Below are positions 6,104 to 21,414 of a stretch of DNA of 41,325 nucleotides, in pieces. A program made the position numbers and the translations under genes. The stretch comes from Myxococcales bacterium (GTDB lineage: Bacteria; Myxococcota_A; Polyangia; GCA-2747355), in contig JAGQIK010000705.1 in NCBI GenBank assembly GCA_020431405.1, positions 1 to 41,325 of the forward strand, in the 5' to 3' direction. The first letter of the stretch is position 1. Every line of letters begins with the position of its first letter. Below the pieces are notes generated by a model. It was not told the DNA's origin. It ran no database searches and saw only the letters and a program-made list of their open reading frames with translations.

Positions 6104-8224
6104 GTGCGATCTTCAGCCTTCGAGCGTTGGGCGCCAGGGTGCGCGCTGTTGCTGCTTTTGGTTGGTCTGCCGGCGTCGCTGTGGCGAGCCGAGCGGCGCA
6201 TCACGCGCGCCGTCGCGCGTACGCTGAGCGTCGCCAGCGGACAGCGCGTCTCGATCGAGTCGGTGCTGTTTTCGCTGCAGCCTGCGCTGCAGCTCGATCG
6301 CGTGCGTGTCGGCGACGCGCTGAGCATCGCGCGCGTAGAGATCGCCATCGACACGTCGACGCTCTCGCGGCCGCGGCTCGCGTCGGTGACGCTGCTGCGC
6401 CCTGCCCTCACGCTCTCGGCGCATCGCACCGAGGCGCTGTGGGATGCGCTCGCGCGCGAGCGCCTGCGCGCAGCCTCGAGCGAGACCAAGCGCAAGACCG
6501 CCGCACGCCGAGGCAGAGAGCTCGACCTCCTGCGCGTGGTCGACGGCAGGCTCGTCGTCGAGCTGTCGAGCGGCACGCATCGCTACACGCTCGACGTGCA
6601 GCGCCTCGACCTGCCGGCACGCGCGCGCGGCGCGGCGAGCCGCCGGCTGGTGCTCGGTGAGACGCGACTTCTGCGCGACCGCACGCCGCTGCTCTCGCTC
6701 GCCGCCAGCGGGCTCGATCTCGACGAGAACCTGCGCCCGCGCCGCGCCGCCGTGCTCGGTGGCCGCCTGGTGCTGCCCTCCGGTTGGACCCGCGTCGGCA
6801 GCGACGCTGCGCTGACCGTGCAGACGCTGCGCCTGCGGCGCTTGCGCGGCGGCGCGCTGCGGCTGCTGCTCAAAGCGCGCCCACCTCGTCGCGACGCGGG
6901 ACACCTCTGGCTGACCGTCGACATCGCGCACGGGTCGCTGCGCCGCGCGCGGCTGCACGTGGCGCGCTTGCGCCTGTCTCCCTACGCGCCGCTGCTCGCG
7001 CGCGTCGGTTGGCTCGCCGAGCGCTCGCGTGTCGACGGCGACCTATTCATCACCGCCGCTGCCGCCGACGCGAGCGCCGACGGCGTGCCGGGCGCGCGCG
7101 CGCTGTCGCGACGTGACGGCTACGCGCTGCGCGGCGATCTGCTGGCGCGACGCGTGCGCATCGAGCACCCCTGGATCGCCGCCGGCATCGTCGGCCCCTT
7201 CGACGCGAACATCGAAGCCAACGCGCACCTCGACGAGCGCGGCGTGCTGACCTTGAAGCGCGCGCGCGTCGCCAGCGGCTCGCTCGAGCTGCGCCTCGCC
7301 GGCCGCATCGCTGCCGCGGCGAAGGGCCTCAAGCTCGCGCTCGACGCCGAGATGCCGCAGCTGCCCTGCCAGCGGCTGCTCACCGATCTGCCGCGCGGCT
7401 TCGCGCCGCACCTCGACGGCATCGGCGTCGAAGGCGACGTCGGCGCACGCTTCGCGCTGCGCGTCGACAGCAGCAAGCTCGACGACACGCACGTCGACCT
7501 GGCGCTCCTGCCCAAGGGCACGCGCAGCTGCACGGTGAAGGCCGACCCGCCAGCCGCCGACGTCAACACCCTCGCGAAGTCGCTGACCATCGCCGTCGGC
7601 GGCGCGCGCGGTCTCGGCCGCCGCCTGCGCCTCGGCAAGTCCAACAAGCACTTCCGCAGCTACCGGCGCATCCCCAAGCACGTGCGCGACGCCTTCGTCG
7701 TCGCCGAGGACACGCACTTCTATCGCCACCGCGGCTTCGACCCCAAGCAGCTGCGCAACGCCTTCGTCGCCAACCTGCGCGCCGGGCGCCTGGTGCGCGG
7801 CGCGAGCACCATCAGCCAGCAGCTGGTCAAGAACGTCTTTCTGCACCACGCGCGCACGCTGTCGCGCAAGTTCGAGGAGGTCGTGCTGACTTGGCGCATG
7901 GAGCAGGTGCTGGCCAAGCGCCGCATCCTCGAGCTCTACCTCAACATGGTCGAGATGGGCGCCGGCGTGTATGGCGTGCAGGCCGCCGCGCAGCGCTACT
8001 TCGGCCGCGACGTGAGCGAGCTGACGCCGCTACAGGCCGCGCACCTCGCCGCCCTCACCCCGGCGCCCCGCCCGCTCTCGCGCCGCTTCGCCAAGGCCGA
8101 GCCCGACGCCAAGTGGATGGACAAGCTGCACCTGCTGCTCCGCCTGATGCGGCGCTCGGGCAGCATCTCGCGTGGTCAGCAGCGGGTCTGGGCCAAGCGC
8201 AAGCTGGTGCTGGTCAGGCGCTAG
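6104..8224 (+). CDS. AsmA-like protein fused to a GT51 peptidoglycan transglycosylase
   Basis: A protein of 706 residues, read from GTG 6104, which has GGAG just upstream and precedes the single N-terminal membrane anchor (CALLLLLVGLPASLW). Residues about 30-480 look like an AsmA-type periplasmic region with repeated hydrophobic beta strands (for example SVLFSLQPALQLDRVRVGD, LRLAGRI). Residues about 500-700 are a glycosyltransferase 51 domain: catalytic Glu535 in VVAEDTHFYRHRGFD, GASTISQQLVKN, RRILELYLNMVEMG, GVYGVQAAAQRYFG and LAALTPAPRPLSR. There is no transpeptidase domain, so it should polymerise lipid II glycan strands outside the inner membrane. AsmA-like regions are linked to envelope lipid transport, so the fusion is unusual. 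It follows ddl on the same strand and converges on the phosphoesterase gene with a shared hairpin. Confidence 0.82.
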   Translation: MRSSAFERWAPGCALLLLLVGLPASLWRAERRITRAVARTLSVASGQRVSIESVLFSLQPALQLDRVRVGDALSIARVEIAIDTSTLSRPRLASVTLLRPALTLSAHRTEALWDALARERLRAASSETKRKTAARRGRELDLLRVVDGRLVVELSSGTHRYTLDVQRLDLPARARGAASRRLVLGETRLLRDRTPLLSLAASGLDLDENLRPRRAAVLGGRLVLPSGWTRVGSDAALTVQTLRLRRLRGGALRLLLKARPPRRDAGHLWLTVDIAHGSLRRARLHVARLRLSPYAPLLARVGWLAERSRVDGDLFITAAAADASADGVPGARALSRRDGYALRGDLLARRVRIEHPWIAAGIVGPFDANIEANAHLDERGVLTLKRARVASGSLELRLAGRIAAAAKGLKLALDAEMPQLPCQRLLTDLPRGFAPHLDGIGVEGDVGARFALRVDSSKLDDTHVDLALLPKGTRSCTVKADPPAADVNTLAKSLTIAVGGARGLGRRLRLGKSNKHFRSYRRIPKHVRDAFVVAEDTHFYRHRGFDPKQLRNAFVANLRAGRLVRGASTISQQLVKNVFLHHARTLSRKFEEVVLTWRMEQVLAKRRILELYLNMVEMGAGVYGVQAAAQRYFGRDVSELTPLQAAHLAALTPAPRPLSRRFAKAEPDAKWMDKLHLLLRLMRRSGSISRGQQRVWAKRKLVLVRR

Positions 8225-8230
8225 GCGCCT
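8216..8230. terminator. Hairpin containing the stop codon between convergent genes
   Basis: AGGCGC (8216-8221), loop TAG, GCGCCT (8225-8230) is a perfect 6-bp stem. The loop is the stop codon of the transglycosylase gene, and the phosphoesterase stop begins one base further on. There is no T-tract, so intrinsic termination is uncertain, but the symmetry would serve both directions. Confidence 0.4.
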
Positions 8231-8962
8231 CTACACGCCCAAGAACAAGCGATTGCCGAAGTTGCGCTCGAGGTCCGTGTCGAAGATCTTCGAGGCGGCC
8301 TTCTCGATGTCGTATTCCTGCCGCTTGAACTCGAAGGTCATCTCGTCGGTGTCGAAGATCGTGTAGCTGGCGCGCGGGTCGTAGTCGCGCGGCTGGCCGA
8401 CGCTGCCCACCGAGATGATGTACTTGTAGTTCTCGCGGATCTGGAAGTGCGTCGCCACCACCTCGTGCACCTCGGTGGGGCCGATGGCGAAGGCCTTGCA
8501 CAGGTGCGAGTGGCCGATGAACGTCACGCGCGCGAGGTCGTCGAAGACGGGCAGCAGCTGGCGCGCCTGGTCGAGCGCGAAGATGTACTCGAACTCTTCG
8601 AGGTTGACCGGCGAGCCGTGGCAGAAGGCCAAGCCCTGCTCGCGATGCTCGTAGGGCAGCGTGCGCAGCCACTTCAGGTTCTCTTCGGTGAGCAGCGACT
8701 GGTGCATGTCGAGCGCGTTGCGCGCGGCCTCGTAGTAGTACGAGTAGTCCATGCGCCCCGCCACCGCCGCGTCGTGGTTCCCCACTATCGTCACCGACGC
8801 GATCGAGCGCACTCGCTCCGAGCAGGCCTGAGGGTCGGCGCCATAGCCCACCGTGTCCCCCAGGCAGATGATCTTGTCGATGCGCTCGCGATCATAGGCG
8901 CGAAGCACCGCCTCGAGCGCCTCGAGATTCGAGTGCACGTCGGAGAATATGGCAATGCGCAT
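8231..8962 (-). CDS. Calcineurin-like metallophosphoesterase
   Basis: A 243-residue protein with every metal ligand motif of the metallophosphoesterase fold: FSDVHSN (Asp8, His10), GDTVGYG (Asp36), GNHD (61-64), CHGSP (His115) and GHSH (150-153). It therefore binds two metal ions and hydrolyses phosphomono- or diesters. The size and compact form resemble the YfcE/MJ0936-like group, but the substrate cannot be read from sequence. The ATG at 8962 starts directly at the first beta strand (MRIAIFSDVH); a longer frame upstream is unsupported. The gene is divergent from the ubiquitin-like cassette with a 108-bp spacer, so shared regulation is possible but not shown. Confidence 0.9.
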   Translation of the reverse strand: MRIAIFSDVHSNLEALEAVLRAYDRERIDKIICLGDTVGYGADPQACSERVRSIASVTIVGNHDAAVAGRMDYSYYYEAARNALDMHQSLLTEENLKWLRTLPYEHREQGLAFCHGSPVNLEEFEYIFALDQARQLLPVFDDLARVTFIGHSHLCKAFAIGPTEVHEVVATHFQIRENYKYIISVGSVGQPRDYDPRASYTIFDTDEMTFEFKRQEYDIEKAASKIFDTDLERNFGNRLFLGV

Positions 8963-9070: not shown

Positions 9071-9571
9071 ATGGCCACACCTAAGGCAGGATCTCAGCGT
9101 CAACAGGGCGGCGCGCGACCCGGCGCCGGCGCCGCCGTCATCGACGAGCGAGACGACGGGGGGCTCGGCAGCGACGACCAGCTGTGCGTCTGCTGCGACC
9201 CGCGCAACCCGCTGGTCATGCGCCCCGACTACGGCGCGCTGGCCGACGGCAGCGCCGAGTTCGCGCTCTGCGTGCTTCACGAGCCGCAGCCGTCGGTCTA
9301 CCGCAACCGCGGCGACGGCTTCTACGTGTGGCTGCGCGAGCACTCGCTCAACGCCGCCGGCGAGATCGTCGATGGCGCGGGCAAGGTCGTGGCGCGCGTT
9401 GCCGGCGACACGTTCCAGCGCCTTTCGACCCTCGATGACGACGACGACGGCCCGCTGCCCAGCGATCCCGGCGGCGGCCCGACCGGCGGCGCGGCGCGCG
9501 AGCTGCCCGGCGGCGCAGCGCGGCCAGCGACCTACCACGTCGATCTCAGTCAAGACGACTTCTACCGCTAA
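9071..9571 (+). CDS. Cys-rich 166-aa protein, first gene of the ubiquitin-like cassette
   Basis: I do not recognise a known family. The ATG has a strong GAGAGAGG site 6 nt upstream. Residues 1-37 are polar and probably disordered. Residues 39-42 read C-V-C-C and are followed by C-V-L-H (67-70), which could hold a zinc ion. Residues about 63-118 look like a compact alpha/beta region (FALCVLHE, GFYVWLRE, KVVARVAGDTFQRL). A run of five Asp (122-126) leads into a Gly/Pro-rich segment with P-G-G at 146-148, then an 18-residue tail ending DDFYR. It lies 30 nt before the E2-like gene, in the position where modifier genes often sit. It may be the modifier, with PGG exposed by the JAB protease, or a zinc adaptor. 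No beta-grasp fold can be confirmed by eye. Confidence 0.75.
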   Translation: MATPKAGSQRQQGGARPGAGAAVIDERDDGGLGSDDQLCVCCDPRNPLVMRPDYGALADGSAEFALCVLHEPQPSVYRNRGDGFYVWLREHSLNAAGEIVDGAGKVVARVAGDTFQRLSTLDDDDDGPLPSDPGGGPTGGAARELPGGAARPATYHVDLSQDDFYR

Positions 9572-9601
9572 CACCTACCTCAGCACCGCGGCGGCGGGTC
9601 G

Positions 9602-10426
9602 ATGATCCAACAGAAGGCAAACGCAGACGGTACGATCCGCCGCTGGGAGCTCGATATCGGCGCCATGGCGCGCGCCGCACGCTGCGAGGGCAGCGAGGTC
9701 GAGCGACTGGGTGACGAGGTGGAGAAGGTGCTGGCCGCCTTCCCGACCATGCTCGCCGTGCTCGGTCAACCGCTCGGCGATGACCGCTGCTGGGTCGAGG
9801 CGGCCGAACCGCATCACTGCCCCGCCGGCGAGCACCTCGTCGTCTTCGATCGCGGCACGCGCTGCGTGGAGTGCGGCCACGAGGTGGATCCCCCACGGGA
9901 CGCCGTGGTCGGGTTTGTCGGCAGGATCCCAGCGCTGATCAGTGGGCGCCCCTTCGAGCGCGCCGTCGATCGGCGCCTCGAGACGCTCGCCGCACACGAC
10001 GCGCAGTCGGCTAGCGTGTGGCGCAGCGCGCTGGTCAGCGCGCGCGACAAGCGCTACCTCGCGCCGCGCTACCACATCTGGTTCGCCGAGTCGTGGCCGC
10101 ACTCGGATCCACCGGTGATGGTCTGGCCCGAGTACTTCCCGATGCTCGACATCCCGCCCGACCACGTCTACCACGCCGACCAGTACTACCGGCTGTGCCT
10201 CTACGCTGCCTGGCGCGAGCAGCCGTGCGTGCGCGTGCTACAAAACCGCGTCGTGCCGCGGCTGCTCATCGACTTGATGGTCGCCGATCTCCAGGCGCTC
10301 GAGCAGCTCGACGCCGCGCTCGACCGCCTCGATGTTACGCTCTACGAGCTCTACAACATGGTCGGTCGCGAGGAGCAGACGGAGCGCTTCCGAGCCGTCT
10401 ATCGCGACCTGGCAGCGGGCTCCTAG
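9602..10426 (+). CDS. E2-like (ubiquitin-conjugating-enzyme-like) protein with Cys-rich insertion
   Basis: A 274-residue protein. Residues about 150-230 follow the order of prokaryotic E2 proteins: strand YHIWFAES (157-164), SDPPVMVWPEYF (168-179), His191, then YYRLCLYAAW (195-204) with candidate catalytic Cys199, and a helical end RVVPRLLIDLMVADL. The R-L-C-L-Y core is characteristic of bacterial E2 relatives. An insertion at 71-100 carries HHC and CVEC (Cys73, Cys88, Cys91), resembling half of a zinc ribbon. The C-terminal 45 residues are predicted helical. The gene begins 30 nt after the 166-aa protein and ends 30 nt before the JAB gene. The expected role is to carry an activated modifier from the E1-like protein to targets. 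Identification rests on motif and context only. Confidence 0.6.
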   Translation: MIQQKANADGTIRRWELDIGAMARAARCEGSEVERLGDEVEKVLAAFPTMLAVLGQPLGDDRCWVEAAEPHHCPAGEHLVVFDRGTRCVECGHEVDPPRDAVVGFVGRIPALISGRPFERAVDRRLETLAAHDAQSASVWRSALVSARDKRYLAPRYHIWFAESWPHSDPPVMVWPEYFPMLDIPPDHVYHADQYYRLCLYAAWREQPCVRVLQNRVVPRLLIDLMVADLQALEQLDAALDRLDVTLYELYNMVGREEQTERFRAVYRDLAAGS

Positions 10427-10456
10427 GTCCCTGGCGAGAGAGCGGAGGCGGATCGC

Positions 10457-11560
10457 GTGAAGGGTTCTCAAAGCAGCGCCAAGGTCGTGGTGTCGCACAC
10501 CGCGGCGCGCGCGATCTTCGCCGAGGTGCAGCGCTGGGTCGATCACGGCCTCGCCGACGGCGGCATGCCGCTCGAGTCGATGATCTATCCGCTCTCGGCG
10601 CTGGTGCCGCGCGACGCGGTCTTTCGCTGCCCGCTCGAGCTGGCCAGCGTCGAGCACATCAGCGAGATCGTGATCGACGGCGCGGCCGTGCCGCCGGACG
10701 AGGTCAAGGCGTTCTCGCCGCATAACTGCCACTTCGCCGCCGAAGACATCGACCAGGCGAGCGCGGCGTTCAACGAGGCCATCGACCGCGCCCTCGCCGA
10801 GCGCCCGCGACTCGCGGTCAACTCGAAGCTGCACAGCCACCCCTTCTCGGGCGGCAAGTTCCTCTCGTCGGGCGACCTGCGCCACGGCGTCAGCGCGCCA
10901 GCCGCGCTGGCCTGGCGCGAGCGGCGCGGCCTCGGCACCGCGATCCTGCACGTGGTGCATCCTGACGGCGATCCGCTGCCCTGCCCCGCGCCCTGGACCA
11001 TCGACGCCGAGGGCGCCGTGGCGAAGGCTCCCGGTCAGCGCGCGGTGCGCTGGCGGATCTCTACGTGGGCTTCCGTCGGGCATTCCGGCGCTGCCGGGCT
11101 GGGCTCGATCGACGCCCCTCAGATGCAAGACCTCGGCGAGGCGCGCATCGTCGGCGACGACTACGACGCTGTGCAGGCCTCGCGCAGGCCGACCTACTGG
11201 CAGACGACCCACGGCGCGGCCTGGTGCGACGCGCAGAAGGCGGCCCTGCGTTCGGCGGGCTACAAGGTCAGCCGCAACGTGCTCGGCCGCGGCTGGCGGC
11301 GCTATTTGGTCGAGGCGGGCACGCGCACCGTGCTGATCGCCTTGCCGCCGGACTTTCCACACGCGCCGCTGCGCGCGCTCGAGGTGCGGCGCGCCTGGGC
11401 CAACGACTTCGCGCCGCTGTCGCCGCCGCCGGGCAGCGCTGGCGGCGACGGCACGCGCATCGGCAACTGCTCGCTGCTCAAGCTGGCGCGCTACTTCGGC
11501 CCGCCAACGCAGCGGGCAGCCGGCGCAGCTGGCGTCGCCGGAGCGCAGCCGTCCGCGTGA
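10457..11560 (+). CDS. JAB/JAMM-domain isopeptidase-like protein with a C-terminal RWD/E2-like segment
   Basis: A 367-residue protein starting with GTG, with GGAGG 8 nt upstream. Residues about 10-180 form a JAB/MPN domain: the zinc motif is exact, H-S-H-P (126-129), seven residues, Ser137, two residues, Asp140. An upstream Glu (for example Glu61, Glu66 or Glu70) would complete the site. JAB proteases remove ubiquitin-like proteins from targets or trim their precursors. Residues about 245-345 are a second domain with GAAWCDAQKAAL, YLVEAGTRTVLIALPPDFPH and PLRALEV. This strand-strand-PPDFP-PL pattern resembles RWD/E2 folds that bind E1 or modifier. The Pro/Gly/Ala-rich end (320-367) is probably disordered. 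The stop overlaps the E1-like start by 4 bp (GTGA). Confidence 0.82.
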   Translation: MKGSQSSAKVVVSHTAARAIFAEVQRWVDHGLADGGMPLESMIYPLSALVPRDAVFRCPLELASVEHISEIVIDGAAVPPDEVKAFSPHNCHFAAEDIDQASAAFNEAIDRALAERPRLAVNSKLHSHPFSGGKFLSSGDLRHGVSAPAALAWRERRGLGTAILHVVHPDGDPLPCPAPWTIDAEGAVAKAPGQRAVRWRISTWASVGHSGAAGLGSIDAPQMQDLGEARIVGDDYDAVQASRRPTYWQTTHGAAWCDAQKAALRSAGYKVSRNVLGRGWRRYLVEAGTRTVLIALPPDFPHAPLRALEVRRAWANDFAPLSPPPGSAGGDGTRIGNCSLLKLARYFGPPTQRAAGAAGVAGAQPSA

Positions 11561-13287
11561 GCGAGCGCCCGACTCACGAGCAGCTGCGCGAGCGCTACCA
11601 CAGCCGCGTGCGCCCGGTCATCGGGGAGCTTTTCTTCGAGCGGCGCGTGGCGCTGTGGGGCTTGTCGCGTGGCTACCTGGTGGCCGAGGCGCTCGCGCGC
11701 ACGGGGCTCAGACAGCAGCTTTGGCTCGACGACGACGACGAGGTCGCCGCCGAGAGCGCCCTCGCGCGCTCGCTCGGCCTCGGCGCGGCGGGAAGCTCGC
11801 GCGCCGCCGCGCTGGCGCGCCACTGCGCCGAGCACAATCGTCTCGAGACGGACTACGCGCTCGAGCGCGTGCCGCGCACGCTCGATGCGCTGCGCGCCGC
11901 GTTGCCGCGCGACCTGCTCGTCGCCGAGGTCGACGAACACGCCGCGGACGTCGCGCGCGCGGCCGCTGACAGCGGCACGCCGCTCGTGCTGGCGCTGCTT
12001 CCGCGCAGTGCCAGCGTCGGCTCCATCCACCTGCTCTGGACGCCCACGTGTGCGCTGAGCGCCGACGATCTGGTGAGCCTCGCCGGCCGGCTCGCCTCCG
12101 TGCCGCGCGCCGACGCCGACGAGGCGCAGGTGCACGTCGATCACCTCGAGGCCGCGTCGGTGGCGCTTTCGCTGGCGCGCTACGCGCTCGCGCCGGATCG
12201 CCCGCAGCGCCCCGATCTCGAGGCGGCGCTGCAGAGCGGCCGCGTGTTGTTCGCGCGCGGCGAGCCGACGTGGCCGTGGTCGGTGCGCCTGCTCGGGGCG
12301 CGCAACGAAGCGCTCTTCGAGCTGCTCGGCGACGGGCGCCCCGCCGTGCGCGTGCCCGCGGCGCTGCTCGGCCGGGAGCGCGTCGTCGTGCTCGGGCTCG
12401 GCACGGCGAGCCTCTTTTGCGCCGAAGCGACAGGGCTCGTCGGCGCGACGCTGCTGCTGCTCGACTGCAAGGAGGTCTCGCCCGAAAACCCGGTACGCCA
12501 GGTCTACGGTACTGACCGTATCGGCGAGGTCAAAGGCCGCGCGCTGGCCGAGATCCTGCGCGCTCGCGTCGACCCGCACGGCGCGCACAGCTGGGACGAG
12601 CACAGCGGCGAAGGCGACGTGACGTGGCTGCGCGGAGGGCCCTGGGCCTTCGGCTTCGGCGAGCTGCGCCTGCGCAAGCGCGACCGCGCCTCTGTCGCGC
12701 GCTTCGAGGCGATGCTCGACGCGCTTCGACCCACCATCGCTGTGGTGGGCATGGGCCAGAGCCGCGACGACAACTTCACCGCCGCGGCGCTGCTGCGCGC
12801 GCGCGGCATCCGCCACGTCACGCCGACGGCCTTCCCCGGCGTCAGTCACTACAAGCACATCCTCACCGACGGCCAGAGCGGCCCCTGCTACGACTGCCTG
12901 CAGGGACATCTGGCCGTCGACGGTGGCGCCGGCCCGACGCTGGCCCGCGAGGAGCGCGAGATGTTCTACGGCGGCACGCAGCCGGCGACGCTCGCCGAGA
13001 CCATGCCCTCGGCCTTCAGCCTGCTGCGCCTGGCGCGTGACCTGGCGCTGCCGCCCGCGGCGCGACCGGCGTACCTCGCGCAGCAGCTCTACGCCGAGCG
13101 CCCCTGCTTTGTCGGGGCCAACCGCGCCGAGCGCACGACGCTCGCCGACGGCTCCAAGCAGTGGCTCTACGGCGTCGACCGGCCGTTCAAGATGGTCAGC
13201 TACGGCATGGGCGACCTCGTCGGATCGCGCAGCGAGGAGCGTTGCCCCAGCTGTGGGCGCGTCAATCGCATGCGGGTGGTGCAGTAG
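11557..13287 (+). CDS. E1-like protein with two ThiF/MoeB-type Rossmann domains
   Basis: A 576-residue protein, GTG start overlapping the JAB stop. The N-terminal half is a degraded Rossmann domain (VALWGLSRGYLVAEALA at 31-47, acidic LDDDDEV). The C-terminal half matches ThiF/MoeB/E1 adenylation domains: VVVLGLGTASL (276-286), LLLLDCKEVSPENPVRQ (299-315, with Asp303, Asn311, Arg314, Gln315), Asp320 and Lys326. A MoeB-type zinc site follows: GPCYDC (442-447) with CPSCG (563-567). In typical members the second acidic residue after Asp303 is Asp; here the order is D-C-K-E. It should adenylate the C-terminus of a ubiquitin-like protein with ATP. The double-domain layout recalls eukaryotic E1 and bacterial two-domain E1s. 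The catalytic cysteine is not obvious; Cys304 and Cys517 are candidates. Confidence 0.85.
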   Translation: MSERPTHEQLRERYHSRVRPVIGELFFERRVALWGLSRGYLVAEALARTGLRQQLWLDDDDEVAAESALARSLGLGAAGSSRAAALARHCAEHNRLETDYALERVPRTLDALRAALPRDLLVAEVDEHAADVARAAADSGTPLVLALLPRSASVGSIHLLWTPTCALSADDLVSLAGRLASVPRADADEAQVHVDHLEAASVALSLARYALAPDRPQRPDLEAALQSGRVLFARGEPTWPWSVRLLGARNEALFELLGDGRPAVRVPAALLGRERVVVLGLGTASLFCAEATGLVGATLLLLDCKEVSPENPVRQVYGTDRIGEVKGRALAEILRARVDPHGAHSWDEHSGEGDVTWLRGGPWAFGFGELRLRKRDRASVARFEAMLDALRPTIAVVGMGQSRDDNFTAAALLRARGIRHVTPTAFPGVSHYKHILTDGQSGPCYDCLQGHLAVDGGAGPTLAREEREMFYGGTQPATLAETMPSAFSLLRLARDLALPPAARPAYLAQQLYAERPCFVGANRAERTTLADGSKQWLYGVDRPFKMVSYGMGDLVGSRSEERCPSCGRVNRMRVVQ

Positions 13288-13319
13288 TCGCGGACACTGG
13301 TATTTTTAGTCGAGGCTCG

Positions 13320-15923
13320 ATGACCCTTCCGCCAGACGACGACAAGCTCAAACAGGTGCTCGACGAGGCGAGCAACTTCGCCGCGCGCGCCGGTGTGCCC
13401 TACTGCAGTGCTCACCTGTTGCTCGCGCTGCTCGCCGCCGACGACGCGAGCGCCAACCTGCTCAACGATCGCGGCCTCGACGCGTCGCGCATCGTGCGTC
13501 ACCTGGGCGAGATCGGCAGCAGCGAGTTGAGCCGCAGTGAAGCAGAGCCCGACGACATGCTGCAGCAGATCCGCGACCGCGCGCGCCGCATGGCGCAGAG
13601 CTGCGGCTCGCGCGCCGTCGGGACGCTGCACTTGCTGCTGGCGCTGGCGAGCCTGCGCGGCTGCATCGCCTATCGCGTGCTCGCCGCGGCCGGCATCGAC
13701 CCGGCCAGCCTGCGCGCCATCGCGTTAGCGCTGATCACCGGCGGACCCGAGCGTCTCGCCGCCCAGCGCAGGCGCGCCGCAGCCGCTGCCGCCGCGGCCG
13801 CCGCCACGACGACGACCACCACCACGGCGACCGCCGCCGATGACGAGCGTGACGGCGCGACGGGCGACGCCATGGCCGGCGACGCCGCACCGGGTGACGA
13901 CGACGAGCCCGTGCGCCAAGGCCTGCTCAGAACGGGCGGCGCGGCAACTCCACGCCGCGGCCAACCGGACGGCGGCGGCGGCGCCCCGCCCCCCACAGAC
14001 CCGCGCATCACGCGCGGCCTCGAGCGCGCCGATGGCGCTGCCGACGCTGACGAGGCCGCTTCGCGACGCGCGCTGCCGGCCTCTCGCTACGCCCTCGACG
14101 AAGAGCGCTACCCGACGCTGGCGATGCTGTGCCGCAACCTCTCGCTCGCCGCCGAGAGCAACCAGATCGAGCCGCTGATCGGGCGCCGCGAGCTGGTCGA
14201 GCAGATCCTCGACATCCTCGGCAAGCGACGCGCGAACAACCCATGCCTCATCGGCGAGCCCGGCGTCGGCAAGACCGCGATCGTCGAAGGCCTGGCCTAC
14301 CTGCAGGTCAAACACCCCGACGAGGTGCCGTTCCTCGACGGCAAGATCCTCGTCGAGCTCAACATGGGCGCGCTGCTCTCGGGCACGCAGCTGCGCGGCG
14401 CCTTCTCCGAGCGCATGGCCGCCCTGCGCGACGAGGTCGAGGCCGCCGATGGCAGCGTGATCCTGTTTCTCGACGAGATCCACACGCTGGTCGGCGCCGG
14501 CGCCGTCGGCGATGGATCGCTCGACGCCGTCGGCGAGCTGAGCGCCGCGATGGCGCGCGGACACTTCCCCTGCGTCGGCGCGACCACCAGCGATCACTAC
14601 CGCAAGAGCATCGAGGAGACGCCGGCGCTACATCGCCGGCTGCAGCCGGTGCTCGTGCCCGAGCCCGAGAGCGACGAGGCGCTGGCGATCATCGCCGGTG
14701 TGGCGCCCGCCTACGCCGAGCATCACACCATCGACTTCTCGCCCGACGCTTACGAAGCCGCCGTGCGCCTCTCGAGCCGCTACATCACCGACCGCTTCCT
14801 GCCGGACAAGGCGATCAGCCTGCTCGACCTCGCCGGCAGCCGCGCCAGACGCCGCGGCAAGCAAGCCGTCGGGCGCGCCGAGCTCGCCGAGCTGGTCGCC
14901 GAGCGCACCGAGATCCCCGCCGAGCGGCTGCTGATGAGCGACACCGAGCGCTTCCTGCAGATGGAAGGCTTCATCTCGAAGCACATCATCGGCCACGACA
15001 AGATCATCAAGCGCGTCTCGGAGGTCATCCGCCGCAACTACGCCGGCTTCTCGAGCGACCGGCCCATCGGCTCGTTCCTGCTGCTCGGCCCCACCGGCGT
15101 CGGCAAGACCGAGCTGGTCAAGGTGCTCGCCGACTTCCTGTTCCAGTCGCGCGACGCGCTGTGCCGCCTCGACATGAGCGAGTACATGGAGCCGCATACC
15201 GTCGCACGCCTGATCGGCTCGCCGCCCGGCTACGTCGGTCACGAAGAGGGCGGCCAGCTCACCGAGTCGGTGCGGCGCAAGCCGTACCAGATCGTGCTGC
15301 TCGACGAGGTCGAGAAAGCACACCGCGACGTGCTGCAGGTGCTGCTGCAGCTGCTCGACGATGGCCGCCTCACCGACGGCCGCGGCCGTACGGTGGACTT
15401 CTCGAACACCGTGGTGGTGATGACGTCCAACCTCGGCAGCGAGCACTACGATCGCCGCCGCGGGCACATCGGCTTCGGCCTCGGCGTCGGCGCCCCCAGC
15501 GGCGACAACGAGGCGACCCTGACCGACGAGGAGTGGAAGCGCATCGTCGACGAAGTGCTGACCACCGCGCGCCGCGCGTTCCCCATCGAGCTGTGGAACC
15601 GCATCGAAGAGCGCATCGTCTTCGAGCCGCTCACGCGCGCGCAGATCCTCGAGGTGGCGCGGCTGCTCGTCGCCGACTCGGCGCGCCGGCTGGCCGCCGA
15701 AAAACAGATCAGCTACGTCGCCACCGACGCCGCGCTCGACTACCTGATCGACAACGGCGGCTACGACCCGCTGCTCGGCGCGCGCCCGATGCGCACCACG
15801 ATCCAGCGCCTCATCGAGGGGCCGGTCGCCGAGCAGATCCTGCTCGGCAAGGCCAAGCCGGGAGACGAGCTGCGCGTCGACTGCGTCGACGGCAAGCTGG
15901 TGGTCGACAAACGCGTCGCGTAG
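13320..15923 (+). CDS. ClpA/ClpC-like AAA+ unfoldase in the ubiquitin-like cassette
   Basis: An 867-residue Hsp100 protein. Residues 8-140 hold two Clp-N repeats (LKQVLDEASNFA..., AVGTLHLLLALASL). Residues about 150-260 are a low-complexity linker with poly-Ala, poly-Thr and acidic runs. AAA domain 1 has GEPGVGKT (312-319), LFLDEIHTL (382-390) and the HRRLQP arginine finger (438-443). AAA domain 2 has GPTGVGKT (590-597), IVLLDEVEKAH (658-668), the sensor TSNLGS (702-707) and GARP (820-823). There is no ClpB middle domain, so it is ClpA/ClpC-like. After TSNLGS an I-G-F tripeptide (717-719) sits where ClpA and ClpC carry their ClpP-docking loop. GAGG lies 5 nt before the ATG, 32 nt after the E1-like stop. 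No clpP or clpS is nearby; ClpP would come from elsewhere in the genome. Confidence 0.9.
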   Translation: MTLPPDDDKLKQVLDEASNFAARAGVPYCSAHLLLALLAADDASANLLNDRGLDASRIVRHLGEIGSSELSRSEAEPDDMLQQIRDRARRMAQSCGSRAVGTLHLLLALASLRGCIAYRVLAAAGIDPASLRAIALALITGGPERLAAQRRRAAAAAAAAAATTTTTTTATAADDERDGATGDAMAGDAAPGDDDEPVRQGLLRTGGAATPRRGQPDGGGGAPPPTDPRITRGLERADGAADADEAASRRALPASRYALDEERYPTLAMLCRNLSLAAESNQIEPLIGRRELVEQILDILGKRRANNPCLIGEPGVGKTAIVEGLAYLQVKHPDEVPFLDGKILVELNMGALLSGTQLRGAFSERMAALRDEVEAADGSVILFLDEIHTLVGAGAVGDGSLDAVGELSAAMARGHFPCVGATTSDHYRKSIEETPALHRRLQPVLVPEPESDEALAIIAGVAPAYAEHHTIDFSPDAYEAAVRLSSRYITDRFLPDKAISLLDLAGSRARRRGKQAVGRAELAELVAERTEIPAERLLMSDTERFLQMEGFISKHIIGHDKIIKRVSEVIRRNYAGFSSDRPIGSFLLLGPTGVGKTELVKVLADFLFQSRDALCRLDMSEYMEPHTVARLIGSPPGYVGHEEGGQLTESVRRKPYQIVLLDEVEKAHRDVLQVLLQLLDDGRLTDGRGRTVDFSNTVVVMTSNLGSEHYDRRRGHIGFGLGVGAPSGDNEATLTDEEWKRIVDEVLTTARRAFPIELWNRIEERIVFEPLTRAQILEVARLLVADSARRLAAEKQISYVATDAALDYLIDNGGYDPLLGARPMRTTIQRLIEGPVAEQILLGKAKPGDELRVDCVDGKLVVDKRVA

Positions 15924-15934
15924 CTGCGCGCTAC
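15920..15934. terminator. Stop-codon hairpin between convergent Clp-like and TPR genes
   Basis: GTAGC (15920-15924) pairs with GCTAC (15930-15934) around a 5-nt loop. The TAG of the Clp-like gene and the TAG of the minus-strand TPR gene lie in the two arms. The stem is short with no T-tract, so a terminator role is tentative. Confidence 0.3.
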
Positions 15935-16584
15935 CAGCGGATGCTGCCCAGCCCGCCCTGCTCGACGTAGTCCGATCCGCCCTGCGTGCCCGCCACCACG
16001 CCGACCACCACGCCGGCGGCGACGGCGGCGCCGATGGCCGTCCAGAACCACCAGCGCTTGTAGACCGGGCGGCTGCTCGCGCTGGCGTCGCCGTCGGCGG
16101 GGTTGTTCGGGTCTCCAGCCGGCGGCGGCGTCACGCCCGGCGGCGGCGTCGTCGCCGGCGGTGGCGTCACCAGCGCCTTGCGGCGCGCCTCTTCCTTGCG
16201 CTTCTTCTCGGCGATCAGCTGATCGATCTCGGCGACGAGGCGCTCGACTTGCGGGCGCAGCGTCGAGCGCTTCGGCGCCAGCTCGAGGAAGCGCTGGTAG
16301 TTGGCCTTGGCCTGCTCGAGATCGCCCGCCTGGCGGTAGCTCTGCGCCACGTTGATCAGAAAACGCGGCCGCGGGTCGGCCTTGTAGCCGGCCTCGAAGT
16401 GTTTGGCGGCCTCGGCGTACTTGCCATCGCGATAGGCCTGCTGCCCGGCGCGGAAGGCCTTACGCGCCGCGCGGCGCTGCTTGCGGCTGATGCGCCGCGC
16501 CGCGCTCTCGTGCGCGCTGACCGCGACAAAACCCGTGGCGAGCACCAGCACCAGCAGCGCGCGAGCGAGCCTACGAGCGATCAT
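15931..16584 (-). CDS. TPR protein with N-terminal signal and C-terminal membrane segment
   Basis: A 217-residue protein. The ATG at 16584 follows AAGGAC and starts a signal or anchor sequence (MIARRLARALLVLVLATGFV). Residues about 35-105 are tetratricopeptide repeats (AFRAGQQAYRDGKYAEAAKH, PRPRFLINVAQSYRQAGDLE, KANYQRFLELAP). A Lys/Glu helix and a Pro/Thr-rich linker (about 140-180) lead to YKRWWFWTAIGAAVAAG, a membrane segment preceded by the W-W-F-W belt common in myxobacterial envelope proteins. It probably sits in the periplasm anchored to the inner membrane. It begins 20 nt after the stop of the upstream Ser/Thr kinase and is likely in the same operon, which suggests a role in that signalling pathway; the partner is unknown. 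Confidence 0.75.
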   Translation of the reverse strand: MIARRLARALLVLVLATGFVAVSAHESAARRISRKQRRAARKAFRAGQQAYRDGKYAEAAKHFEAGYKADPRPRFLINVAQSYRQAGDLEQAKANYQRFLELAPKRSTLRPQVERLVAEIDQLIAEKKRKEEARRKALVTPPPATTPPPGVTPPPAGDPNNPADGDASASSRPVYKRWWFWTAIGAAVAAGVVVGVVAGTQGGSDYVEQGGLGSIRW

Positions 16585-16604
16585 CGACGATGTCCTTTGC
16601 CCTG

Positions 16605-18521
16605 CTACTTGTCGTTGGCATAGGGGTCCGCGAGCGCGCCGCCCTTGAGGTCGGGCACCGTGCGCTCGAGCTTGTAGTGAAGCTTGCGATCGCGGTCGGC
16701 GCGAAACACGCGCCACTGCGTCTTGTGCTTGGCCAGGTCGAGCCGCACGCGCACGCGCGTGCCGCGCGGCACCGTCGTCGACAGCGGCGTGCGTCCGCGC
16801 ACCCGCTTGCCGAAGTAGACCGTCGCGCCCGACGGTGTCGAAGCGATGCTGACCTGCACCATCGCCCCCGCCGCCGGCGCCGGCGTCGCGCGCTTGGTTC
16901 GCACCTGCGCGGCGCGTTTGGCCGGCGGCGTGCGCACCTTCGTCGTTCGCCGCACCACGCGTTTGCTTGGCGGCGCGCGCTTGGTAGGCGGCAGCGCGGC
17001 AGCGGTGCCACTCGCGCTGCCGTCGTCGGGATCGCGGTCGTCGGTGCGTACGCCGCTGCCCGTGCCGCTGCCGGCGGCGGCCGCGCTGCCGGACGCACTG
17101 CCGGACGCACTGCCGGACGTACTGCCCGGTGCGACGTCAGCGCTGCCACTGCCCGCCGCCGCACTGCCCGCGGCCGCACTGCCCGCGGCCGCACTGCCCG
17201 CGGCGGCACTGCCCGCGGCTGCGTTGTTCACCGCGCCGCCGCTGCCGCTACCGCTGCCGCCCGAGTTGGCGGCCATCGCGGAGCCAGAGCCCCCACCCGA
17301 AGCCGACGCCGTGCGCGTGGGTGGCTTGAGCAGCGCGTAGAGCGTGACTACCACGAGCGTCGCCAGCACCAACCCCGCGATGACCAGCGGCATCACCAGG
17401 CTGCGCTTGGGCGGCACGAGCTCGGCCTGCTCGCCCGCCGGCATCATCGTCACGCTCGCGCTCTGGCTGCGGCTGCCGCTCGGCTCGGCGCTCGCGCGGA
17501 AGCCCACGGCCGATGACGAGGCCGAGTTGGACGTGCTGCCGCTGCCTTCGCGCGGCGTGCTCGGCGTGCTGCGGTGCTGCTGCTGCTGCTGCATCAGCGG
17601 GCGCACCATCTGCGTCAGCTGCGTCGGCGCGAACGGCCGGAAGTGCAGAAAGCTCTCCAGCGCCTCGCTCATCTCCTCGGCGGTCTGGTAGCGGTCCTCC
17701 GGCTTGCGCGCGAGCGCGCGCGCGCAGATCTCGTTGAAGACCGCCGGCGCCTCGGGGCGAAACTCGGTGACGGGCGGCACGCGCGCTTTGACGACGTTGG
17801 TCAGCGTCAGGTAGTCGGTCTTGGCCTTGAAGAGCCGCCGGCCGGTGAGCATCTCCCAGAGGATGATGCCGGTAGCGAAGATGTCCGACTGCGCGGTGAC
17901 CGGACGCCCCTCCACCTGCTCGGGCGACATGTAGCTCCACTTGCCCTTGAGCGTGCCGGTGCGCGTGTCTTCGCGCTCGAGCGCTTCGACGGCCTTGGCG
18001 ATGCCGAAGTCGAGCAGCTTCACGCCGCCGTGCGCCGTGATCATCACGTTGGCCGGGCTGATGTCACGATGCACCAACCCCAGTCGCTGACCGCCGCGGC
18101 TGAGCTGATGCGCGTACTGCAGACCAGCGCAGACCTGCTGCACGATAAACGCCGCGGCCGCCGGCTCGACGGGGTTGCGCTTGCCGTGCGCGCGATTGAA
18201 GCGCAGCAGCGTGACGCCCTCGATGAACTCCATCGCGATGAAGTAGCGCCCCTCGACCGATCCGAAGTCGTAGATCTGGACGATGTTGGGGTGCTCGAGC
18301 AGCGCCGAGAGCTTGGCCTCGTCGATGAACATCTTGAGGAAGTGCTCGTCGCGCGCGAGGTCCGGCAGGATGCGCTTGATCACCATCTCGCGCTCGAACC
18401 CGCCCAGCCCGCGCAAGACGGCGCGGTGCACCGTGGCCATGCCCCCCTGCCCGATCTCCTCGAGCAGCTGGAACTTGCCAAACGGCTGCGGTGCAGCTGG
18501 TGGATGTTCGGCGGCGTGCAC
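16605..18521 (-). CDS. Membrane Ser/Thr protein kinase with repeat linker and PEGA domain
   Basis: The most likely start is GTG 18521, placed 5 nt after GAGG and just before the kinase core, giving 638 residues. GTG 18578 and TTG 18692 are in-frame alternatives, but the latter coincides with a likely -35 box. Residues 14-290 are a complete Hanks kinase: IGQGGMATVH loop, Lys49 in VIKR, HRDISPANV with Asp153, DFG (171-173) and MSPEQ. A linker with a poly-Gln run precedes one transmembrane helix (SLVMPLVIAGLVLATLVVVTLY). Outside are Gly/Ser/Ala repeats from tandem 12- and 15-bp DNA units, Lys/Arg/Pro-rich stretches and a PEGA-type beta domain (VSIASTPSGATVYFGKRVRG). PEGA domains are extracytoplasmic sensors or wall-binding modules. 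The downstream TPR gene follows after 20 nt. Confidence 0.88.
   Translation of the reverse strand: MHAAEHPPAAPQPFGKFQLLEEIGQGGMATVHRAVLRGLGGFEREMVIKRILPDLARDEHFLKMFIDEAKLSALLEHPNIVQIYDFGSVEGRYFIAMEFIEGVTLLRFNRAHGKRNPVEPAAAAFIVQQVCAGLQYAHQLSRGGQRLGLVHRDISPANVMITAHGGVKLLDFGIAKAVEALEREDTRTGTLKGKWSYMSPEQVEGRPVTAQSDIFATGIILWEMLTGRRLFKAKTDYLTLTNVVKARVPPVTEFRPEAPAVFNEICARALARKPEDRYQTAEEMSEALESFLHFRPFAPTQLTQMVRPLMQQQQQHRSTPSTPREGSGSTSNSASSSAVGFRASAEPSGSRSQSASVTMMPAGEQAELVPPKRSLVMPLVIAGLVLATLVVVTLYALLKPPTRTASASGGGSGSAMAANSGGSGSGSGGAVNNAAAGSAAAGSAAAGSAAAGSAAAGSGSADVAPGSTSGSASGSASGSAAAAGSGTGSGVRTDDRDPDDGSASGTAAALPPTKRAPPSKRVVRRTTKVRTPPAKRAAQVRTKRATPAPAAGAMVQVSIASTPSGATVYFGKRVRGRTPLSTTVPRGTRVRVRLDLAKHKTQWRVFRADRDRKLHYKLERTVPDLKGGALADPYANDK
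17146..17220 (-). repeat. Five 15-bp tandem repeats inside the PEGA kinase gene
   Basis: Units of GCACTGCCCGCGGCC repeat head to tail five times with one or two changes, encoding A-A-A-G-S blocks on the minus strand. A separate run of 12-bp units GCACTGCCGGAC precedes it (about 17093-17130) and encodes S-G-S-A blocks. Slippage could vary the length of the extracytoplasmic linker in steps of five residues without breaking the frame. Confidence 0.85.
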
Positions 18522-18662
18522 GACTTCCTCTACGTCTACGCCAGCCTCACTGGCGAAGACCCCTCGGCGATTCGACACACGTGCCCTGGCCGCCGCTTGG
18601 GTGGATCGCGACGCACCTATCCCCGCGCCGGCAAGGCGCACGTATGCACTCTTCCTGTACGG

Positions 18663-18692
18663 ATCATGCCCGACGGGGGATGCGCGAGTCAA
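18663..18692 (-). promoter_or_regulatory. Candidate sigma70-type promoter for the PEGA kinase
   Basis: On the minus strand TTGACT (18692-18687) and CATGAT (18668-18663) are 18 nt apart. The pair lies just after the stop of the upstream lipoprotein gene and about 140 bp before GTG 18521. Its position argues against the far upstream TTG start. Confidence 0.4.
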
Positions 18693-18708
18693 AGGTAAAG
18701 CATTGGAA

Positions 18709-21414
18709 TCAGGGCAAACGGAACGTTGCCTGCATCACGACCGAGCCCTCTGCGCCGCTCGAAACGGCCTCGCTGACGAGGTAATAGGCGCCGGCTGGCA
18801 GATTGCTCCACGTCAGCTTGCCCGCGCTCTGACCGTTGGTGGCCTTGCACGAGACGGGCGCAGCGTCGCAGGCGAAGCCGGTTCCCTTGTCGTTGAACAG
18901 CGCCAACACGTGGTTGCCGAACTGCGCGTAGTCGATCTCGAGCGTGCCCGCGGCGGGCAGCGCGAGGCCGACCACAGCGTCCTCGCCGCCGCCTAGCGCG
19001 CAGCTCGCCGAGTTGGAGTCGCCGGCGCCCGAGGTGGTGACGGCGACGCTCTTGGCGATGCCGGCAGGCAGCACGCCGAGCTTCTGATCCGGCGTGCAGG
19101 TCAAGCCCTGACAGAGCGGCTTGCTCGAGCAGTTGCTGTCCTGGCAGTCGATCTTGCCGTCGCCGTCGTCGTCGATGCCGTTGTTGCAGATCTCCTGCGC
19201 GGCGTCCGGCGTCGCCGAGAGGCTCAGCGAGACGGTGCCCTCGGCGCCCGGCTTGAAGCCCTCGACCACGAGGAAGTATTTGCCCGGCTGCAGGTTGGGC
19301 ATGATGAAGTTGCAGCCGAAGGGGCCATTCTTGAGGTCGGCGCAGTTGACCGGCGTCTTGTCGCACGGGTCGCGCGGCGCGCCCGCGGCGAAAAGACCGA
19401 GCACGTGATCGCCGGTCTGCGTGCACGAGATGTTGAGGCCCGAGACCTTGTCCAGCTCGAGGGCGATGACGGTGTCCTTGCCGCCGCCCAGCGCGCACGA
19501 GACGGTCTGATCGTTGTTGGCGGTGGTGGTGTTGACCGAGACGCTGACCGGCGGCGCGCCGTGCGTCAGCACGCCGACGTTCTTCTCGGCGGCGCAGACG
19601 GGCCCAGGGCAGCCAACGACGCCCGTGCAGTCAGGATCCATGCAGTCGGTGAGGCCATCGCCGTCGTCGTCGATGCCGTTGGCGCAAAGCTCGGGGCCGC
19701 GGTTGGCGAAGGCGCGAAACTCGACGCGCACGGTGCCTTCCTGACCGGGCGCCAGCGCGTCGACCACGTAGTAGTAGACGCCCTTCTTCACCGATCCGTA
19801 GCTCAGCTGGAAGCGACCGCGGTTGTTGGAGTCGAAGCACGAGCCCTTGTCGGCCGTGCAGACCGTGCCGGGGCCCGCGTCCTCGTGCAGGCCGAAGACG
19901 TGGTAGCCGCTCTGGTCGACGCTCACCGCGAGGCCGCCCGCCTGCGGCATCACGACGCGGATCACGCGCTCTTTGCCGCCGCCCGCCGCGCAGGTCTCCT
20001 CGACGTTGTTGGCGCCGGTGCTGGTGTCGACGTTGGCGACCTTGCTCGGGCCGTTGATCACCAGCGCGCCGAGGTTGACGTCCACCTGGCAGATCTGCGA
20101 CTGGCAGCCGGGGTCGAGCGCGCAGTCGAGGTCGGCGCAGTCGGTGGCGCCGTCCTGGTCGTCATCGATGCCGTTGTTGCAGACCTCTTTGCCGGCGGGC
20201 GTGCCGGTGCTGAGCGTGACCTCGATCTGACCTTCGAGCGACTTCGCGAAGGCTTCGGCGATCAGGTAGTACTCGCCGGCCTGCAGGTTGGGCACCGAGA
20301 AGGAGCCGCTGTTTTTCGACTGCGGATCGAAGCAGCCGCGCGAGTTGGCGTTGCAGGCCTCGCCCGTGCCGGCGCGAAACAGCGACAGCACGTGGTCGCC
20401 GCTCTTCTGCACGTAGCTCAGCTTGACGTCGGCGGGCGCGTCGAGCTCGAAGCGCGCGACGAGCTCGCCGCCGCCCGGCACGGCGCACGGCGAGGTATAG
20501 ACGTCTTTCTGGTTGGTGGTGGTCAGCGTACGCGTCACCGACGCGCCGCTCGCCTTGATTGTGCCGAAGTCCACGCTCGGCTTGCACAGCAACGACTGGC
20601 AAGACGGATCGTTGAGGCAGTCGGGATCGTCGCAGTCCACCGCGCCGTCGAGATCGTCGTCGAGCTGGTTGCCGCAGATCTCTTTGCCCGGGGTGCAGAT
20701 CGGCAGCCCACTGCAGTCGCTGTCCTTGCAGTCGATGTCGCCGTCGGAGTCGTCGTCGATGCCGTTGTTGCAGACCTCGGCGCCGGGCTGGCGGCAGCTC
20801 GGGTGCTTGAAGCAGTCGGGGTCTTGGCAGTCGACGAGGCCGTCGTTGTCGTCGTCGACCTTGTTCTCGCAGCGCTCGCGGCCAGCGGCGCAATTGGCGG
20901 CGCCGTTGCAATCGTTGTCGTCGCAGTCGACCAGGCCGTCGCCATCGTCATCGAGGCCGTTGGTGCAGTTTTCGGGATCCTTCATGTTGCAGATCGGCTG
21001 GCCGAAGCAGTTGGGATCGGCGCAGTCGACGAGCCCGTCGCCGTCGTCGTCGCGCTTGTTGTCACAGATCTCGACGCCGGGGATGCAGCGCTCGTCGTTG
21101 CGACAGTCGCTGTCGGCGCAGTCGATCAGCCCGTCTCCGTCGTCATCGACGCCGTTGCCGCACAGCTCGAAGCCGGGATTGCGGCAGCTGGGATCCGAAA
21201 AGCAGTCGGGGTCGGCGCAGTCGGACAACCCGTCGCCGTCGTCGTCGCGACCGTTGCTGCAGATCTCGCGACCGCCGTCGCCGTCGGGGCCGCTGTCGGT
21301 GCCGTTGCCGAAGACGTGCGTGCGGCCACAGGCGGCCAGCAGCAAGAGCGACAGCAGGAGGGGGAAGATGGCGTGAGGAGGGATGGCGTTAATAGTGAAA
21401 CGGTTGGTCGTCAC
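18709..21414 (-). CDS. Large lipoprotein with ten D-D-D-x-D-G metal-binding repeats and four beta domains
   Basis: A 901-residue protein starting at GTG 21414, with a signal peptide ending in lipobox LLAAC (Cys29). After it come seven tandem units of about 32 residues with the pattern C-x-N-x(2)-D-D-D-x-D-G-x(3)-D-C-x-D-x-D/N-C (about residues 50-275). Then four similar beta-rich modules alternate with three more such units. Each module has G-G-G-(E/K), a GDHVL-like strand, a Cys pair and an L-x-(A/P)-G-x-Y-Y/F-L-V strand, resembling pre-peptidase C-terminal domains. The Asp-rich repeats are the MopE-type putative metal-binding motif frequent in Myxococcota and probably bind calcium, with paired cysteines as disulfides. 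It is likely displayed at the outer membrane. No catalytic site is seen. Confidence 0.85.
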   Translation of the reverse strand: MTTNRFTINAIPPHAIFPLLLSLLLLAACGRTHVFGNGTDSGPDGDGGREICSNGRDDDGDGLSDCADPDCFSDPSCRNPGFELCGNGVDDDGDGLIDCADSDCRNDERCIPGVEICDNKRDDDGDGLVDCADPNCFGQPICNMKDPENCTNGLDDDGDGLVDCDDNDCNGAANCAAGRERCENKVDDDNDGLVDCQDPDCFKHPSCRQPGAEVCNNGIDDDSDGDIDCKDSDCSGLPICTPGKEICGNQLDDDLDGAVDCDDPDCLNDPSCQSLLCKPSVDFGTIKASGASVTRTLTTTNQKDVYTSPCAVPGGGELVARFELDAPADVKLSYVQKSGDHVLSLFRAGTGEACNANSRGCFDPQSKNSGSFSVPNLQAGEYYLIAEAFAKSLEGQIEVTLSTGTPAGKEVCNNGIDDDQDGATDCADLDCALDPGCQSQICQVDVNLGALVINGPSKVANVDTSTGANNVEETCAAGGGKERVIRVVMPQAGGLAVSVDQSGYHVFGLHEDAGPGTVCTADKGSCFDSNNRGRFQLSYGSVKKGVYYYVVDALAPGQEGTVRVEFRAFANRGPELCANGIDDDGDGLTDCMDPDCTGVVGCPGPVCAAEKNVGVLTHGAPPVSVSVNTTTANNDQTVSCALGGGKDTVIALELDKVSGLNISCTQTGDHVLGLFAAGAPRDPCDKTPVNCADLKNGPFGCNFIMPNLQPGKYFLVVEGFKPGAEGTVSLSLSATPDAAQEICNNGIDDDGDGKIDCQDSNCSSKPLCQGLTCTPDQKLGVLPAGIAKSVAVTTSGAGDSNSASCALGGGEDAVVGLALPAAGTLEIDYAQFGNHVLALFNDKGTGFACDAAPVSCKATNGQSAGKLTWSNLPAGAYYLVSEAVSSGAEGSVVMQATFRLP

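Follow-up and report, generated by a model that had tools for sequence, protein, structure and literature searches.

We report a cassette of five genes in a 41,325-nucleotide (nt) contig of a Myxococcales bacterium (JAGQIK010000705.1, hereafter the window, from the 11.2-Mb, 733-contig assembly GCA_020431405.1) that may encode a conjugation and deconjugation cascade that delivers to a dedicated Clp unfoldase and in which the small first protein serves as tag or adaptor; we give this reading a probability of roughly 45%. The genes, termed P1 to P5 in their order on the plus strand between positions 9071 and 15923, encode a small protein with a cysteine motif, a protein resembling ubiquitin-conjugating enzymes (E2-like), a putative JAMM/JAB protease, a protein resembling ubiquitin-activating enzymes (E1-like) and a ClpA-like ATPase, with gaps of 30, 30, -4 and 32 nt; these coordinates, together with strand, lengths and spacings, had been given by a first-pass annotation of the DNA and were borne out on recheck. 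We infer each of the reactions, which protein is the tag, and that tagging is tied to unfolding and to ClpP degradation, as the first-pass annotation had also proposed. P4, as a pseudo-dimeric E1, would adenylate the C-terminus of the small protein; P2 would take the activated tag on Cys199 and transfer it to target proteins; the JAMM domain of P3 would trim or remove the tag, and the cysteine-less E2/RWD domain of the same protein would hold either P2 or the tag. As a ClpA-type unfoldase predicted to be able to dock on the cell's ClpP by a GF loop, P5 would then unfold the tagged proteins, and the P1 tail may act as the tag or adaptor end once the final one to three residues of P1 are lost.

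That tagging is coupled to unfolding is the most economical reading of a gene association that recurs, with 4-nt overlaps, in all four genomes of the order available to us (patterns, or profiles built from three or four sequences, were used to search the collections). When 59 relatives were searched with P4, full-length homologues came up in exactly the three other genomes of the order (53–57% identity), with nothing comparable in the remainder. All five genes stand in identical order in two of these relatives (L007 and L009); in the third (L008) the contig ends inside P2, and the P1 tail led to a second contig of that genome, which carries P1 and the beginning of P2. The carriers span the window's genus and three more genera, including a second family. 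P3 and P4 overlap by 4 nt in 4/4 genomes, and P4 and P5 do so in two relatives. The first-pass annotation had named a Clp gene missing from beside the E1, E2 and JAB genes in relatives as grounds for refuting its proposal, and had suggested a survey of the joint occurrence of all five genes; the Clp gene is adjacent in 3/3 relatives, with a P4–P5 spacing of -4 or 62 nt, and the five-gene set is complete in 4/4 genomes of the order (in L008 across the contig break).

In profile searches, residues 18–87 of P4 match Cap2/TcdA and its residues 265–335 match Atg7/NAE (the NEDD8 E1), and from these separate N- and C-terminal matches we conclude that it has two ThiF halves. A ThiF Pfam match was found in 2/4 orthologues (best 1.3e-6), along with a PADLOC E1-E2 match at 1.8e-7; nothing in Pfam, NCBIfam or PADLOC exceeded a curated cut-off for the window's P1–P4. 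Asp303 and Lys326 do not vary across 4/4 orthologues, nor do two cysteine pairs, 444/447 and 563/566, which would fit a zinc site; the RYxxRV-like start of the N-terminal half is a possible Arg finger. By analogy with eukaryotic E1s, P4 looks like a pseudo-dimer of which one half only assists. The E1 assignment made at first pass is sound: two halves are matched, and the ATP-site residues are invariant.

Unshuffled hhalign probabilities for the more divergent proteins reached only ~0.1–10%, and the comparisons were judged by column shuffles and swapped-family controls. P3 had been called a JAB protease from an exact HxHPx7SxxD motif, which occurs nowhere else in the window's six frames and arises in 3/20000 residue shuffles of P3; Glu40, His126, His128, Ser137 and Asp140 are invariant in 4/4 orthologues, and P3 aligned with the JAB family profile at the JAB motif (1/100 shuffles as good). 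Its AlphaFold model (four sequences) had a predicted local distance difference test score (pLDDT) of 53.5 overall, and the C-terminal third alone was used; the N-terminal half shows a JAB-like order of strands and helices at low confidence and gave no significant profile or fold match. The motif and its invariance support the JAB call, which is borne out in part. The C-terminus, modelled as a helix, four strands and two helices (pLDDT about 50–87), had ubiquitin-conjugating enzymes as the majority of its top 50 Foldseek matches in the PDB, each of them weak (best E 0.27), and its IALPPDFP..PLR segment fell on strands 3–4 of bacterial E2s (P 0.003; 1/100 shuffles as good). With modest confidence, we take this model to indicate an E2-like fold, and because no conserved cysteine follows the E2-like strands, the domain would be RWD/UEV-like. 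Such a cysteine-less domain on the JAB protein had not been foreseen at first pass.

P2 is likely an E2, judging by its sole recognisable piece, DPPVMV...HVY....RLCLY, which aligns with the PP...HV....LCLY of Prok-E2_A/Cap2-type domains. The comparison domains came from two genomes of the phylum and from plasmids, and adjoin annotated DncV-like nucleotidyltransferases in 4/9 plasmid records examined. Against the bacterial E2 profile, RLCLYAA of P2 was placed on LCLY (1/100 shuffles as good), whereas against the JAB profile P2 stayed at shuffle level (52/100 as good); of the three swapped-family controls, two were at shuffle level and the third, the P3 C-terminus against JAB, was matched by 6/100 shuffles. 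Neither P2 nor its orthologues matched a Pfam E2 family, and a search for the Prok-E2_B family matched nowhere, controls included, and was hence uninformative. A zinc ribbon in P2 was considered as an essential element and rejected, its cysteines being missing from the L007 copy and from that in genome G002.

P1 is the most likely candidate for the tag or a tag-presenting adaptor, a role that it would play through its invariant C-terminal tail, HVDLSQDDFY, after which the four genomes carry R, GAR, RAP or R and then a stop. An exact coding match to DLSQDDFY occurs once per genome, and the reversed control pattern gave zero; a search for other proteins bearing the tail turned up two near matches, both inside frames and not C-terminal. 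The conserved head (CxCCxPRNPLV...ALCVLHEP...VYRNRGDG) is joined to the tail by an acidic, glycine-rich and variable linker, and this layout resembles that of a tethered C-terminal motif. The first-pass description of a Cys-rich small protein holds for the CxCC...CxxH motif of the head; the absence of a ubiquitin-like fold signal, the invariant tail and a DUF3659-like stretch (best E 1.5e-5, matched in 3/3 members scanned) had not been anticipated.

P5 matches Clp_N (repeats), AAA, AAA_lid_9, AAA_2 and ClpB_D2-small, has both Walker A/B pairs intact in 4/4 orthologues and the D1 Arg-Arg present, and, when aligned with the ClpA and ClpB of the same genome, lacks an M-domain; it is 40–43% identical to that ClpA, with a longer linker. 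The initial assignment to ClpA/ClpC-like ATPases with an IGF loop is well founded, ATPase motifs and GF loop being intact in the four orthologues. At the ClpP-docking position, P5 carries IGFG and the genome's own ClpA carries VGFG; the loop is missing from the ClpB and the TssH-like proteins of this genome. GF- or IG-type loops are borne by three further, more distant Clp-like paralogues there, so the loop alone is no proof that P5 binds ClpP. Elsewhere in the genome are one canonical ClpP (contig C161) and a separate ClpA preceded by a ClpS-like frame (C450). Two further loci were noted. One (L078, contig C139, 3569–10593) encodes tandem Clp-like AAA+ proteins of 1198 and 1140 amino acids that share 31–35% identity with P5 across the AAA region, a GF-type loop being present in one protein and an IG-type (STIGVA) loop in the other. 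The second locus (L081, contig C3, 2456–14000) appears prophage-like and holds a terminase-like gene; a ClpP-like protein of 400 amino acids encoded there (7124–8326) is the second good ClpP match.

Several observations weigh against a cascade that ends in unfolding for ClpP. P1 gave no beta-grasp match in sequence searches (its fold was not predicted) and has no Gly-Gly terminus, its last residues being R, GAR or RAP instead of Gly, and it resembles DUF3659; nor is there a beta-grasp ubiquitin-like modifier among the five genes. In the P4 alignment no invariant cysteine stands at what we take to be the crossover-loop position of MoeB/UBA-type enzymes; outside the zinc-type pairs only C288 and C517 are invariant, and since the usual crossover cysteine is not evident, the thioester step on P4 is unproven. 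The E2 call for P2 keeps its LCLY match and invariant Cys199, and an E2 fold was not obtained: the AlphaFold model (three sequences; pLDDT 45, predicted template modelling score 0.31) is unusable as a fold, and its Foldseek matches were meaningless and discarded. Finally, the cassette contains no ClpP gene, and the first-ring pore loop of P5, GT[QA]LRG among the orthologues against GTRYRG and GAKYRG in the genome's own ClpA and ClpB, is non-aromatic, which may mean that P5 is not an ordinary translocase.

These last two points also favour an alternative in which the conjugation cascade operates as proposed and P5 is a remodelling chaperone that strips or reshapes tagged complexes, with tagging regulating activity as Cap2 does on cGAS/DncV-like nucleotidyltransferases (CD-NTases). 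A non-aromatic loop also occurs in a TssH-like paralogue, and P5 scores higher against the NCBIfam model for ClpB (681 bits; cut-off 1232) than against that for ClpA (576 bits; cut-off 993), both below cut-off. In type II CBASS (cyclic-oligonucleotide-based antiphage signalling systems), conjugation is reported to lead to enhanced CD-NTase activity and not to degradation (PMC10097602, PMC10449767). A remodelling role is harder to square with a GF loop that is present in all P5 orthologues and absent from the genome's ClpB and TssH-like proteins, and with the missing M-domain; we regard it as possible, if somewhat unlikely. Rather unlikely, in our estimate, is the most far-reaching form of the tagging-and-unfolding cascade itself, namely a dedicated tag-and-destroy pathway with P1 as a non-beta-grasp tag (by its HVDLSQDDFY tail) and its own unfoldase delivering to ClpP, serving as a core function of the order independent of Pup and SsrA. 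Genes for Pup, PafA, Mpa or the 20S proteasome are not among the cassette's five, and no genome search for them was made.

We also considered that the E1-E2-JAB set might act on P1 alone, with P4 activating the P1 C-terminus for a dedicated modification or for autoconjugation (adaptor maturation), and that P1 would then be the adaptor that delivers substrates to P5. P1 is the first gene, and its build, a variable linker between a conserved head and an invariant tail, is that of a short motif on a tether; conjugation in type II CBASS is reported to centre on one dedicated partner, the CD-NTase (PMC10449767). A full E2 plus a JAB protein nevertheless exceeds the need of a single step, and there is no direct evidence for a P1–P5 interface, and we judge this arrangement improbable. 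Less probable still is a beta-grasp tag whose gene lies at another place in the genome, with P1 as an E3-like zinc adaptor: the CxCC...CxxH pattern and missing beta-grasp signal of P1 would suit it, as would the zinc proteins without known role that accompany E1/E2/JAB operons (PMC1779556), but the remaining parts all lie in one operon in every genome, and the cassette shows no ThiS/MoaD-like gene (no search for one was made across the genome).

The surroundings and distribution of the cassette bear on its inheritance. Upstream lies a metallophosphoesterase gene on the opposite strand (stop at 8231), with 78% identity in both L007 and L009, and downstream a convergent tetratricopeptide repeat (TPR) gene, also on the opposite strand (stop at 15931); with both neighbours on the opposite strand, the five genes form a separate transcription unit. 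The downstream TPR, kinase and 901-aa genes are common to the window, L008 and L009, and L007 differs there. A P3 profile run over 318 genomes of the class recovered the same four genomes plus one marginal match, beyond which the 314 class genomes outside the order gave nothing; the marginal match (G317/L016), without a related open frame, was dismissed. Across 379 genomes of the phylum, the window's own copy was the sole match of the P2 profile, and the P4 profile found, besides itself, only weak matches of 19–26 bits; the three examined were TcdA-like proteins. P4 was not found on 72,556 plasmids (tblastn) or in the viral contigs scanned. The genome-contig scan gave two relatives, JAFCZD010000139.1 (from the Deltaproteobacteria metagenome-assembled genome AB_03_Bin_128) and PDPC01000113.1 (from the metagenome-assembled genome DOLZORAL124_67_5.8), and no additional cassette members came from the plasmid, viral-contig or genome-contig scans. 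Because the flanking genes are shared, we regard the cassette as inherited rather than roaming, and its conservation points to an ancestral chromosomal locus, vertically inherited, and not to a mobile defence island. The likeness to Bil, CBASS and PRTRC systems drawn at first pass accordingly extends to the E1/E2/JAB set and not to their mobile distribution, and a mobile antiphage system of that kind, to which this set and the weak PADLOC E1-E2 matches of P4 would point, is scarcely credible for a locus with shared flanks, present in 4/4 genomes of a single order and absent elsewhere in the class, on plasmids and in the scanned viral contigs.

Features of the cassette, with positions in the window (aa, amino acids)
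Feature	Positions	Strand	Description
P1	9071-9571	+	166 aa; small protein with Cys motif; kept in 4/4 genomes of the order
P1 tail HVDLSQDDFY	9536-9565	+	identical in 4/4 genomes (alignment plus fourth copy in G002)
P2	9602-10426	+	274 aa; E2-like; orthologues 55-62% identical
P2 Cys199	10196-10198	+	proposed E2 catalytic cysteine; invariant in 4 orthologues; aligned with the Prok-E2_A/Cap2-type LCLY cysteine
P3	10457-11560	+	367 aa; putative JAMM/JAB protease fused to E2/RWD-like domain; orthologues 54-60% identical
P3 JAMM residues Glu40, then HSHPFSGGKFLSSGD (126-140)	10574-10876	+	five residues invariant in 4 orthologues
P3 C-terminal E2/RWD-like domain (about 246-352)	11192-11512	+	E2 position lacks a conserved cysteine
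P4	11557-13287	+	576 aa; two-domain (pseudo-dimeric) ThiF/E1-like enzyme
P4 N-terminal ThiF-like half	11587-12201	+	without GxGxxG; keeps RYxxRV-like start; boundary approximate
P4 C-terminal adenylation half	12352-13284	+	GLGTAS, D303, N311/R314, K326, D404/D405, CxxC (444/447), C563/C566; invariant columns
P5	13320-15923	+	867 aa; ClpA-like double AAA+ ATPase, no M-domain
P5 first-ring pore loop SGTQLR (loop GTQLRG)	14379-14396	+	Leu in 4/4 orthologues; Tyr in the genome's ClpA/ClpB
P5 GHIGFG loop	15462-15479	+	at the ClpP-docking position; IGFG in 4/4 orthologues

Some further loci deserve mention. The block that adjoins the cassette downstream (15931–21414, minus strand), comprising the TPR gene, a PEGA-domain Ser/Thr kinase and the 901-aa protein, is conserved in 3/4 genomes and could be functionally linked to the cassette or reflect mere synteny. 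The source genome also carries what is apparently a second, unrelated E1-JAB operon (L080, contig C253, 4795–8959), in which a different E1-like gene (217 amino acids) and a JAB gene (128 amino acids, motif HTHPP) lie between AMP-ligase-like and patatin-like genes. In two genomes of the phylum (L067 and L068), E2-E1 fusion genes stand beside genes of the metallo-beta-lactamase fold, with a JAB-like end visible in L067, and nine plasmid loci (L069–L077) carry E2-E1 genes, several of them adjoining DncV-like nucleotidyltransferases.

We found no earlier description of an E1/E2/JAB/ClpA cassette in the open literature, although an earlier mention is possible, two relevant reviews from 2011–2012 lying outside the search. 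Bacterial E1/E2/JAB gene clusters were described by Iyer, Burroughs and Aravind in 2006 as types 6a–6e, highly mobile and with unclear ties to ATP-dependent proteolysis (PMC1779556). A Clp-type motor beside tagging enzymes in a conserved operon makes that link directly testable in bacteria, and the cassette further provides a fusion of JAB with RWD, a bacterial E1 of two domains that recalls the split eukaryotic E1 layout, and a possible tag of non-ubiquitin fold. Like clusters 6a–6e, it holds E1-like, E2-like and JAB genes in one operon, and type 6e, too, includes an E2/RWD-like domain that lacks the cysteine, as well as a protein with a zinc finger; in those clusters, however, the RWD-like domain is joined to poly-ubiquitin-like (Ubl) domains or stands alone and JAB is fused to E1, whereas here JAB is fused to RWD, the two-domain E1 is free, no beta-grasp protein is present, a Clp AAA+ protein is added and the locus is not mobile. 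Type II CBASS Cap2/Cap3 likewise combine E1, E2 and JAB activities, with the C-terminal tail of a protein possibly serving as E1 substrate, and Cap2 is among the PDB matches of P4; the cassette differs in having no CD-NTase, unfused E1 and E2, an extra Clp ATPase and vertical inheritance. Kaur et al. (2020) described Ubl-conjugation sets inside FtsH ternary systems, one of them coupled to Pup conjugation (PMC7159879), which also link an E1/E2/JAB set to an AAA+ protein but comprise FtsH, MoxR-vWA, EAD1 and caspase-like effectors, in place of which the cassette has a ClpA-like protein. The actinobacterial ThiS/MoaD-JAB-cysteine synthase-ClpS operons (type 4d, PMC1779556) are also JAB/Ubl clusters hinting at Clp-dependent degradation; they have a ClpS adaptor and a bearing on sulfur metabolism, with no E2 listed, whereas the cassette has a full Clp ATPase and an E2-like protein. 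P5 itself shares with ClpA two AAA+ rings, Clp_N repeats, the lack of an M-domain and the GF loop, and departs from it in its longer linker, the Leu of its first pore loop and an NCBIfam ClpA score under the cut-off. By its enzymes, the cassette belongs with the bacterial ubiquitin-type conjugation operons, from which it departs by having no visible beta-grasp modifier and by the addition of a Clp motor.

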